The position numbers and the translations under genes were made by a program. Shown here in pieces: positions 4,054 through 23,662 of a stretch of DNA of 23,785 nucleotides. The stretch spans positions 1 through 23,785 of IMG/VR virus record IMGVR_UViG_3300042465_001344; one strand, 5' to 3'. The DNA comes from a virus. How positions within the stretch are numbered: position 1 is the first letter of the stretch; the number at the start of each line of letters is the position of its first letter. The notes under the pieces were generated by a model. The model worked only from the letters and a program-made list of their open reading frames with translations. It did not search any database and was not told the origin of the DNA.

Positions 4054-4398
4054 TTACGCGGCCCGTAACCGCAGGCGATACTGAAACATATCCTCGCCCG
4101 GTCTTGCCGGTACTCCGATCTTCCTGCCGTGCTCCATTGTTAGCTGATCGCTTGTCCACCATGCGACTACCTTTTTCTCAGGCATTGAGATTTCATCATC
4201 AAAGCGCTCACCATTGAGCCAGCTTGCAGGGTGAGGGATGAACTGTTTATCTCGTCCCTCTGCTGTCCACATCCGCACATGATCGTCAATCGCCTGTAGT
4301 GCTTTCTGTTGCTGCTCGGCAGTAAGGCGTGCGTATGCTTTCTGTGCATCCTTGCGAGCTACTTTCTTTGGGTACTTGATGTAGAAGTCGTCAAACAT
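4054..4398 (-). CDS. Replication protein/helicase-loader-like C-terminal domain protein
   Basis: The 114-residue protein starts MFDDFYIKYPKKVARKDAQK and contains FIPHPASWLNGERFDDE (residues 53-69). These two patterns are typical of the C-terminal domain of phage replication initiation or helicase-loading proteins; here the domain stands alone, without the N-terminal DNA-binding half. The ATG is preceded by GGAGG at five bases, a very strong ribosome site, and overlaps the glycosyltransferase gene end by 40 nt. It likely acts with the host or phage helicase at the replication fork, but this is inference from the motif. Confidence 0.7.
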   Translation of the reverse strand: MFDDFYIKYPKKVARKDAQKAYARLTAEQQQKALQAIDDHVRMWTAEGRDKQFIPHPASWLNGERFDDEISMPEKKVVAWWTSDQLTMEHGRKIGVPARPGEDMFQYRLRLRAA

Positions 4399-5237
4399 TT
4401 TTCCTCCGTTTCCTGTTGTGCGACTAACTTCATTCCGTAGTTGTTAACGCCCTCACGAACAACCACGTTCTTCTTGATGAGTCTGTTTCGCTTGAACACA
4501 TCAAAGTCAACGCGATGATGCCAGCGACCGTAGCGCATGACAAGACTTGCCATGTCGGGCCATGTATCAACAAGCATCTGTGACTTTTCTTTGTTACGAC
4601 TGCCGTTACCGTAAAGCTCTTCTGTGTTGCCTCCTTTCACACTCAGAGTTGCTGCTTTGTTTTGCAAGAAAGCGTTGAAGATGATCGTGCACCAACCTGC
4701 TGTGAGCATCTGCAATGAGAGATCCACGTCTTCGTTGTATTTGAGTCTCCAACGAAACGGCACGTCGTTGCGAATCAAGATGCACGAGAAAATTCTTGTA
4801 TTGATTCTGAACGGTGGCATCGCTGTTCTCTGCTCTGCAAAGAAACGATACTGCAAGCCAGCTTGTGCGACGTTCTCATAGCGATCAACGAAATCTTCGC
4901 ACGCTTTGAAGATCGCAGGTGATCTGCAAGGTATTTTTTTGTTGTTGTTCAAGCGCACAAAACCATCGATGTTGTCATCCATGATCCAGTGCCATGTAGC
5001 GCCTTGCGAGATCGAGTGCTCCCAACACCAGTTGCGTGCAGGATAAGAGCCAAGTCCGTGATTGCTGAACGGTAGCACTAAGATTTTTCTCGCTTCAATG
5101 ACTGCTGCATAAGCATCGTATTCTTGAGGCTCTACTGCAATGCGATAGTCAACGTTCATGCGCTCAAGTGCTCTGCTCGTATGACGCGAGTCAGCACGAC
5201 CCTTGCTGATGATGTAGATCGGATGCTTAGGCTTCAT
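4359..5237 (-). CDS. TET-associated-type glycosyltransferase (possible DNA base modification)
   Basis: The 292-residue protein begins PKHPIYIISKGRADSRHTSR, followed by YRIAVEPQEYDAYAA and ILVLPFSNHGLGS. It then has a GT-A-like metal/sugar-nucleotide motif WIMDDNIDGF (Asp87-Asp88) and a second acidic motif YNEDVDLSLQ (residues 167-176). This pattern matches the TET-associated glycosyltransferases of phages, which add sugars to hydroxymethylated bases. No TET/JBP dioxygenase or hydroxymethylase is visible in this window, so the substrate is not established. The ATG at 5237 gives an 11 nt overlap with the preceding small gene; a GTG four codons earlier is an alternative. Confidence 0.72.
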   Translation of the reverse strand: MKPKHPIYIISKGRADSRHTSRALERMNVDYRIAVEPQEYDAYAAVIEARKILVLPFSNHGLGSYPARNWCWEHSISQGATWHWIMDDNIDGFVRLNNNKKIPCRSPAIFKACEDFVDRYENVAQAGLQYRFFAEQRTAMPPFRINTRIFSCILIRNDVPFRWRLKYNEDVDLSLQMLTAGWCTIIFNAFLQNKAATLSVKGGNTEELYGNGSRNKEKSQMLVDTWPDMASLVMRYGRWHHRVDFDVFKRNRLIKKNVVVREGVNNYGMKLVAQQETEEKCLTTSTSSTQRK

Positions 5238-5463
5238 CGACGTAAACACGCTTTTCTGACTTCTCTTTGACAGGAAATAACACGCTCTTCGTCGTAAACG
5301 ATATGCGACGACCTATCAGCTCTGAAAACTCATTCATGTCCTCAGTCGTCAGAAAACTAATCGTTACTTGATGAATCGTGCGTAAGTTCTCTTGAATGAA
5401 CTCAGGCATGTCTTGCCATTCTTTCTTGTAGTCAAACGTTTCTTCGCCGAACAAATCACTCAT
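5227..5463 (-). CDS. Small protein coupled to the glycosyltransferase gene (78 aa)
   Basis: This 78-residue protein begins MSDLFGEETFDYKKEWQDMP and contains DMPEFIQENLRTIHQVTISF, then EDMNEFSELIGRRI and a Lys-rich end. I recall similar small proteins upstream of the same glycosyltransferase type in aquatic phages, which suggests a functional pair, but no activity is known to me. It has an AGGTGA before the ATG and overlaps the glycosyltransferase start by 11 nt. It is the first convincing gene after the structured leader at 5507-5830. Confidence 0.72.
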   Translation of the reverse strand: MSDLFGEETFDYKKEWQDMPEFIQENLRTIHQVTISFLTTEDMNEFSELIGRRISFTTKSVLFPVKEKSEKRVYVDEA

Positions 5464-5506
5464 GAGTCACCTGTATAAGTAGCTAGTAGTATCTGCTTTC
5501 TGGTGA

Positions 5507-5830
5507 GCGCACTTAGCCTAAGCCAAATGCGCCTTTAGTCTGTGCTTTCCGGAGCCACGACACTCGTCAGTCTTTCGGTCAAGGGCACTAACTTCGCCAC
5601 CCTTATGCGTGCTGTCGCAGACCTTAGCCACCAGTAGCACTCTTCCAATCGCAGCCCTGTTGCTCTCATTGCCGACTGCGTTGTAGTCAAAGAAAAACCC
5701 ATCACGGCTGGGCTTCGAGCTGCGGTGGAAGAGAACGGAAACGGAACAGTCTCGACAACCGAAGCCCATGCGTGATGGGTCTATTGTTCCCGTTCGCGCT
5801 TCCACACGCGGCCCGATCTTTCTCTCGGAC
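5507..5830 (-). ncRNA. Candidate structured leader RNA between cro-like gene and glycosyltransferase module
   Basis: About 400 nt separate the cro-like gene from the next good gene on the same strand. The only long frame here (5518-5838, GTG start) encodes a Cys/Arg-rich sequence unlike its neighbours. On the minus strand the stretch can form an 18/20 bp long-range stem (5698-5779) followed by five Us. It can also form a 12-pair hairpin (5507-5532) that is fully paired only as minus-strand RNA, because its three non-Watson-Crick positions become G-U pairs on that strand. The likely role is regulatory (attenuation, antitermination or antisense). The boundaries and the RNA itself are inference. 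Confidence 0.35.
5698..5779 (-). terminator. Long inverted repeat with U-tract: attenuator/terminator-like
   Basis: Arms at 5698-5717 and 5760-5779 are complementary at 18 of 20 positions, with a 42 nt loop. On the minus strand the 3' arm is followed at once by TTTTTCT. Part of the loop (5727-5747) is also partly complementary to 5786-5803, upstream in the transcript, so two stems would interlock as a pseudoknot or compete. An intrinsic terminator normally has a shorter loop, so a conditional attenuator is at least as likely. Confidence 0.45.
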
Positions 5831-5836
5831 AAACAC

Positions 5837-5865
5837 ACAGTAAACGACTATTTTCTGTTTGTCAA
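5837..5865 (-). promoter_or_regulatory. Possible promoter for the structured leader
   Basis: A perfect TTGACA (5860-5865, minus strand) lies just after the cro-like stop codon. At 17 nt spacing the -10 position reads TACTGT (5837-5842), a poor match. If active it would give a transcript starting about 5830, right at the structured stretch. The weak -10 box makes this tentative. Confidence 0.3.
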
Positions 5866-6087
5866 CTACTGCTGCGGGACGATCTCAGCAACAAGCTGCT
5901 GCACAGGTATGTAATCGACAGGATTGACGACCAGCGCGTTTTGAGTGATGACTTGCAACTTGTACGCAACGCCCTCGGGAATCGTGCCACGCTTCGCCCA
6001 TTGACTCACAGCTTGACTTGTAATGCCCAATGCCTCAGCCAGCTTGCGCCGATTGCCAAAATGCTGCTCTGCTTGTACAACTTTCAT
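5866..6087 (-). CDS. cro: Cro-like helix-turn-helix repressor
   Basis: The 73-residue protein has a compact helix-turn-helix near its N-terminus: RKLAEALGITSQAVSQWAKR (residues 14-33), then GTIPEGVAYKLQVIT, the usual arrangement of lambdoid Cro/DicC-type proteins. The ATG at 6087 has a perfect AGGAG six bases upstream; an in-frame start at 6159 lies upstream of the predicted transcription start and is rejected. A strong promoter (6125-6152) drives it leftward, and palindromes in the intergenic region (6106-6121, 6167-6182) are likely operators. It should set the balance between leftward and rightward transcription. No divergent CI-type gene is adjacent. Confidence 0.88.
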   Translation of the reverse strand: MKVVQAEQHFGNRRKLAEALGITSQAVSQWAKRGTIPEGVAYKLQVITQNALVVNPVDYIPVQQLVAEIVPQQ

Positions 6088-6105
6088 AGTAGCTCCTAGG
6101 TTGAA

Positions 6106-6199
6106 AAGAATACTTGCAAAGAGCAGTATAGTGTAGCAATCTATCTTGTCAAGAGACATTGATTAAGTTAAGAATACTTAACAATTTTCCTTTGCAAGT
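6106..6199. promoter_or_regulatory. Operator region: repeated palindromic sites between divergent promoters
   Basis: GTTAAGAATACTTAAC at 6167-6182 is a perfect palindrome with a 4 nt centre. The core AAGAATACTT recurs at 6106-6115 on the start site of the leftward promoter. ACTTGCAAAG (6112-6121) and CTTTGCAAGT (6190-6199) are perfect inverted copies of each other. A partial site, AAGTATGTAAC, lies at about 6218-6226 near the rightward -10 box. Such spaced, related sites between divergent promoters are what a Cro/CI switch uses. Which protein binds is inference. Confidence 0.6.
6125..6152 (-). promoter_or_regulatory. Strong leftward promoter of the cro-like gene
   Basis: On the minus strand a perfect -35 TTGACA (6147-6152) and a -10 TATACT (6125-6130, five of six) are separated by 16 nt. 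The predicted start near 6118 leaves a leader of about 30 nt with an AGGAG before the cro-like ATG. An operator-like sequence (6106-6121) overlaps the start site, as expected for autoregulation. Confidence 0.82.
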
Positions 6200-23176: not shown

Positions 23177-23662
23177 TTACTCCTTAGATTTGCTGCCAAC
23201 GACGCGGAGATCGCGCTGCGGCAAGTGGAAAAATGGTTCTTCAAAACGTACATTCTCAAAACCTGATTCAACTAACATCGTGCCAATTTGCTGTTTTGAG
23301 TAGCACCAATGGTGACGCATCGTATCAGGTTCGGGCATTCCGAACAATGCACGCCCGATCAAATCGTCATTCCTGTGTCCCTGATTCCATAGCGCAATCA
23401 CGTTATCAAGGCATGGCATTTCAAGCGATAACTGACCGCCTGGCTTTAGCACCCGCAACCACTCTAGCAACGTTTGTTTCGCTTTAGGGGTCGGGATATG
23501 CTCAAACAAATGGATTGCGGAAATCTCATCGGCATGGTTATCCGGCAAATCAAGTTCTGTTACATCCGAAATCAGGTCTTGCTCGCCAATGCAATCAACA
23601 TTGATCCAGCCTGGCCAAGACCTATCGCCCGCCCCTAGATGGAGTCGAATACGCTCTGCCAT
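23177..23662 (-). CDS. Class I SAM-dependent methyltransferase
   Basis: The 161-residue protein has LHLGAGDRSWPGWINVDC (residues 7-24), the SAM-binding motif I with the acidic residue Asp23, then SAIHLFEHIPTPKAK (48-62) and RVLKPGGQLSLEMP (70-83), the usual motifs of small Rossmann-fold methyltransferases. The substrate is not visible; glycan or virion-surface modification is possible because a glycosyltransferase-like gene precedes it. The ATG overlaps the end of that gene by 28 nt. The missing full C-terminal domain suggests a minimal enzyme. Confidence 0.85.
   Translation of the reverse strand: MAERIRLHLGAGDRSWPGWINVDCIGEQDLISDVTELDLPDNHADEISAIHLFEHIPTPKAKQTLLEWLRVLKPGGQLSLEMPCLDNVIALWNQGHRNDDLIGRALFGMPEPDTMRHHWCYSKQQIGTMLVESGFENVRFEEPFFHLPQRDLRVVGSKSKE

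Follow-up and report, generated by a model that had tools for sequence, protein, structure and literature searches.

A small partner domain that accompanies a branch of TAGT-family glycosyltransferases in phages and bacteria

The glycosyltransferase gene and its overlapping partner

The window, by which we mean the whole stretch of DNA analysed, is a linear virus record of 23,785 bases with no CheckV completeness value. Its minus strand carries two overlapping genes, one for a TAGT-family glycosyltransferase and one for a 78-residue protein made of a domain that we refer to as SP, with the following features.

4359..5237, minus strand: TAGT-family (PF20691) GT-A glycosyltransferase, 292 codons from ATG, assigned by Pfam and PHROG 842
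4971..4979, minus strand: DDN codons (HWIMDDN), putative metal/nucleotide-sugar motif; D86, D87 and N88 invariant in alignment A1
4728..4736, minus strand: NED codons (YNEDVDLS), putative catalytic-base region; N167 and D169 invariant, E168 in at least 90% of alignment A1
5227..5463, minus strand: 78-residue partner, a stand-alone SP domain that overlaps the TAGT gene, with 73 related IMG/VR loci
5398..5418, minus strand: W-x-x-M-P-E-F motif of SP; W16, M19 and P20 invariant and E21 in at least 90% of 47 SP sequences
5272..5295, minus strand: T-T-K-S-x-x-F-P motif of SP (consensus KTKSIWxP); P64 invariant in 47 SP sequences

The protein encoded at 4359-5237 matches the Pfam TAGT profile PF20691 with 158.7 bits against a cut-off of 27.5 (E 2.4e-46, profile positions 2-205 of 205), and PHROG 842, named 'beta-glucosyl-HMC-alpha-glucosyltransferase', at E 5.7e-47. 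The initial annotation had called a TAGT-type enzyme with MDDN and NEDVD motifs and an 11 nt overlap with its neighbor, and all of this is confirmed. The same minus-strand frame can also be read from a GTG (4359-5249, 296 codons), the ATG at 5237 being the likelier start, and the overlap with the SP gene is accordingly 11 nt counted from the ATG or 23 nt from the GTG. The motifs PIYIISKGRADS, WIMDDN and YNEDVDLS were all found in the window's enzyme, and 24 columns are invariant among the 60 TAGT relatives of alignment A1. The role of DDN as a metal/nucleotide-sugar motif is one that we take to carry over from GT-A enzymes, and NED presumably marks the region of the catalytic base. In comparison with close relatives, dN/dS was 0.05-0.09 for the TAGT gene and 0-0.09 for the gene of the 78-residue partner; both are under purifying selection, and the gene pair is thus far more than a chance observation.

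The partner protein matched no Pfam family, its best PHROG match was non-significant (E 0.05), and tblastn returned nothing from 50,697 phage records at E<=1; relatives are present in the 73 IMG/VR loci. The pair sits in an early position, with a Cro-like gene (5866-6159) on one side and, on the other, a gene resembling the C-terminal part of replication initiators (4054-4398). The approximately 400 nt that separate the Cro-like gene from SP (5464-5865) hold minus-strand frames only, one of 106 codons at 5518-5838 and one of 56 codons inside it. Elsewhere in the window, the gene at 1368-2069 matches PHROG 3704, 'ferredoxin' (E 4.3e-44), without any Pfam match, and this name looks doubtful.

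Neither TAGT nor SP had a solved relative by sequence profile. A natural SP-TAGT fusion (locus L139), whose TAGT part is 54% identical to the window's, was predicted with a pLDDT of 90.4 and a pTM of 0.88, as a GT-A fold that Foldseek and VIA-align matched to GT-A enzymes, at a best Z of 14.2 across 229-234 residues. VIA-align placed polysaccharide synthases and polypeptide GalNAc-transferases nearest among solved folds, a resemblance that speaks to fold and not to function. SP modeled alone reached a pLDDT of 78.4 and a pTM of 0.43, a value too uncertain for a fold search, and this model was dropped as a query. That SP appears better defined with TAGT attached would fit docking, if weakly.

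Constancy and architecture of the pair

SP was scored as present when fused to TAGT or when encoded on the same strand within 2 kb. Counted from the TAGT side, SP lay beside or was fused to the enzyme in 75 of 80 IMG/VR viral loci and in 50 of 57 loci from bacterial genomes (51 if a weaker match in L211, E 7e-5, is included); because the SP profile was trained on viral loci, the viral count is partly circular, and the bacterial count is not. Among ten sampled reference phages nine carried SP, the exception being P12024L, in which an annotated TET gene lies directly upstream of the SP-less TAGT. Counted from the SP side, TAGT adjoined in 71 of 73 loci, and the remaining two (L107 and L135) stop just after SP. 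Contig edges or partial genes account for almost all of the misses: in the five viral loci without SP (L041, L042, L046, L060, L061) TAGT is within ~750 nt of a contig edge, and of the six bacterial ones four are at edges (L189, L221, L222, L224), L225 is half a gene with its upstream sequence present, and L226 is a spurious match. Scored without a nearby SP were L225 and three second TAGT frames, of which two are divergent (L021:16168 and L224:715) and one reaches the contig end (L015:8152). The co-occurrence check, with SP at 75/80 viral and 51/57 bacterial loci, thus bears out the earlier view of the 78-residue gene as a true partner.

No third constant gene was found within 4 kb on either side of the pair, the commonest neighbor families (replication gene, epimerase, HNH, terminase) occurring in at most 12 of 69 clusters, and 2 of 50 records had a C5-methylase. 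One close relative of the window has an identical SP and, between it and TAGT, a SAM methyltransferase gene (L004:4079-4921); 5 of 69 clusters have a member of this family, perhaps one of sugar methyltransferases, adjoining SP-TAGT.

SP occurs in three architectures: as a separate gene, as in the window; as the N-terminal part of TAGT (e.g. phage Aeh1, Vibrio phage 1.076.O, L139); and as the C-terminal part of a longer protein. Of 87 such long SP proteins 83 have a ParB-like domain. Alignment A4 has 34 members, of which 23 are ParB-SP proteins and 19 match Pfam ParB_N. A FastTree phylogeny of 114 TAGT sequences, from which sequences shorter than 225 residues or containing X were dropped together with L001 and L226, requires at least 21 switches of architecture, and two changes explain the presence and absence of SP. 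This exchange of architectures suggests that SP is recruited as a module. Outside the SP branch fall the TAGTs of T6 and P12024L and three further SP-less ones, all on long branches of unsure placement; six long-branched rows of the tree have unsure positions. At L139:4734-7131, two SP-TAGT fusion genes stand in tandem and are preceded by a third, stand-alone SP-like frame.

Hydroxylases and ParB-like proteins

Since the window is a fragment without a completeness value, the lack of a gene there means little by itself, and the search for a base hydroxylase relied instead on a related contig (G001), 49 viral records and 50 host genomes. G001, an IMG/VR contig of 33,783 bp that has a 34-bp terminal repeat and is collinear with the window throughout, is therefore probably a complete relative. 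Beyond the window's span it encodes a terminase, portal-size and capsid-size proteins, GIY-YIG, an MptE-like protein and a glycosyltransferase-like protein, where portal, capsid and glycosyltransferase are our reading in the absence of a Pfam match. Its methyltransferase, glycosyltransferase-like and MptE-like genes form a cluster (L276:12701-14882), of which the window holds only the methyltransferase (23177-23662).

The TET search covered 50 viral records and recovered 22 of 22 known TET records as a control. Its sole match was the SP-less P12024L, so that TET/JBP was found in none of the 49 SP-type records (G001, 39 other IMG/VR records and nine reference phages). Likewise, a dCMP hydroxymethylase or other thymidylate-synthase-family gene was found in none of 42 SP-type records (G001, 39 other IMG/VR contigs and two 47-kb Vibrio phages), and among SP-type records such genes were present only in seven large reference phages. 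2OG-FeII oxygenase genes exceeded the cut-off in 3 of the 49. The T4-type beta-glucosyltransferase PF09198 was matched in 0 of 50 records, and control genomes likewise gave no match. On the bacterial side, TET was detected in one of 50 whole genomes with an SP-type TAGT, a Winogradskyella MAG (L204/L263) in which TET is accompanied by an SP-less TAGT of its own and by a ParB-like gene, next to the SP-TAGT. The absence of the known hydroxylases is thus systematic in SP-TAGT phages and is not an artefact of the window.

These counts bear on three explanations that the initial annotation had offered for seeing no hydroxylase, an observation that holds for the window and extends to G001 with respect to TET and thymidylate-synthase-family genes. 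A location outside the window is unlikely, given that the collinear 33,783-bp relative has neither gene, and a base supplied by TET of the host is unlikely as well, since 49 of the 50 host genomes lack TET. What remains is a different substrate, or an acceptor made by an unrecognised hydroxylase. The 'TET-associated' label also proved unfit for the SP clade, because the TET-linked TAGTs are without SP.

TET loci have a constant partner of their own. Of 79 IMG/VR TET loci (L286-L364), 69 have a ParB-like gene that directly borders TET or overlaps it, and in the other ten TET is at most 267 nt from a contig edge; SP was found in none of the 79. The ParB-like domain of the ParB-SP proteins is homologous to this gene adjoining TET (profile match E 5.7e-49), and the constancy of the ParB-like neighbor suggests that phage DNA modification systems share a principle of targeting. 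The C-terminal region of the ParB-like genes at TET (KMxQLFF...) is unlike SP. A homology between the two was considered and found to be unsupported alone (probability 1, E 0.054); in a longer profile alignment they occupy the same position. In two Bacteroidota loci (L265:714-2334 and L266:1354-2732) the TAGT gene has no SP, and a ParB-like gene overlaps it. The ParB-like domain occurs in 340 phage records, and among the 60 matches listed, 21 fall within genes whose annotation is DNA methylase or methyltransferase. A PNAS 2025 survey likewise describes phage proteins in which a ParB fold is fused to an N6/N4 methyltransferase (PMC12704722). The ParB-like partner of TET and the methylase fusions argue that SP-TAGT acts on DNA too, and according to a further study the TAGT of T6 is a DNA glucosyltransferase (PMC13216743). 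DNA is, by association only, the likeliest target of SP-TAGT. For the window this link is indirect, as no ParB-like gene was found in it or in five related contigs. The suggestion that the small partner is a specificity or DNA-binding subunit is plausible insofar as SP is often C-terminal in ParB-like proteins, and the window's partner itself has no ParB_N domain. Neighborhoods of ParB, TET and TAGT may have been described earlier, and we claim no priority for the ParB links.

A proposed two-part enzyme, its alternatives and known systems

Taken together, we consider it probable, though well short of certain, that SP and TAGT form a DNA glycosyltransferase of two parts, with SP docking or positioning the catalytic subunit and with an acceptor that does not come from known enzymes. 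TAGT, as the GT-A glycosyltransferase, would be the catalytic subunit, and SP a docking or positioning subunit needed by the whole TAGT branch, which would hold or orient the enzyme on its acceptor; ParB-SP versions would add a DNA-loading domain. The pair would be made early and would most likely attach a sugar to phage DNA in place, which would probably block host nucleases, and the acceptor would be made neither by TET/JBP nor by a thymidylate-synthase-family hydroxymethylase. To our knowledge every characterised DNA glycosyltransferase requires a hydroxylated base, which counts against this explanation. Other sugar genes at some SP-TAGT loci (GT32-like, GT4, epimerase, methyltransferase) mean that another acceptor would fit too. 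A more far-reaching version, which we regard as doubtful, is that SP-TAGT glycosylates an ordinary, unhydroxylated DNA base directly, with SP or ParB-SP presenting the DNA, in one step without prior oxidation, and does so across numerous phages and phyla of bacteria. In its broadest form, ParB-like proteins whose C-terminal domains can be exchanged would be a platform on which TET, DNA methylases and glycosyltransferases alike are loaded.

There is perhaps a one-in-several chance that the pair instead glycosylates 5-hydroxymethyl (or hydroxy) bases of DNA like other TAGTs, the hydroxyl coming from an unrecognised hydroxylase of phage or host. We know of no TAGT of established substrate that acts on anything other than a hydroxymethylated base, which supports this explanation, as does the large number of phage genes here without assigned function. 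The T6 enzyme is a case in point (PMC13216743). The 2OG-FeII oxygenase genes in three of the 49 SP-type records would also suit such a hydroxylase; however, 12 of 69 clusters is the most in which any third gene family accompanies the pair, and TET and thymidylate-synthase-family genes are absent from the respective 49 and 42 records. The one SP-TAGT that adjoins TET, in the Winogradskyella MAG, might be cited in its favor, but that TET sits with its own SP-less TAGT.

That the pair glycosylates a host or virion protein, with SP either as the acceptor or as the part that recognises it, is improbable. Conserved Thr, Ser and Trp residues in SP, the peptide GalNAc-transferases among the nearest solved folds, and the separate MptE-like, GT-like and methyltransferase cluster near the capsid genes of G001 are compatible with it, but SP is fused to ParB-like domains that elsewhere go with TET and DNA methylases, and the T6 TAGT acts on DNA (PMC13216743). 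Least likely of all is SP as a regulator (e.g. an inhibitor or stabiliser) of a TAGT that finds its substrate alone. The small size of SP, the overlap of its gene with that of TAGT and its poor model in isolation would suit a regulator, but protein chains that combine SP with TAGT or with ParB-like domains are more easily explained by docking, and the exchange of architectures suggests modular recruitment.

If DNA is glycosylated in Vibrio phages 1.076.O and 1.124.O, which are cultivated, 47 kb long and free of both TET and thymidylate-synthase-family genes, either an unknown base hydroxylase or new acceptor chemistry is implied. A 2026 NAR study counts 288 of 753 phage genomes with solitary TAGT homologues, which it regards as potentially novel transferases, and describes TAGT function as yet to be defined (PMC13216743). 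One branch of these solitary TAGTs now has a constant partner, and known hydroxylases are absent from this branch as a rule.

The TAGTs with a known source of hydroxymethyl groups, i.e. that of T6 and the TET-linked ones, are without SP. The ggt of T6 shares PF20691 with the window's enzyme (35.8 bits) and the GT-A fold (PMC13216743); unlike the window's gene, it adjoins a dCMP hydroxymethylase gene, lacks SP and encodes an enzyme that puts another glucose on a base already bearing one. TET-linked TAGTs, in Nonlabens phage P12024L (29% identical to the window's) and in the IMG/VR TET loci, likewise combine PF20691 with a context of phage DNA modification, but have TET next door, SP in 0 of 79 TET loci and, in the IMG/VR clusters, a ParB-like gene. 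The ParB-methylase fusions (PMC12704722, in whose text the word 'glycosyltransferase' does not appear) have the ParB_N domain in common with the ParB-SP proteins that are paired with TAGT elsewhere, whereas the window has the SP part only. A further comparison is with the SP-TAGT fusions of Aeromonas phages Aeh1 and 65 and Vibrio phages 1.076.O and 1.124.O, which have the same SP and the same TAGT branch at 41-46% identity, in one chain rather than the two genes of the window, and several of which belong to large phages that also carry thymidylate-synthase-family genes.
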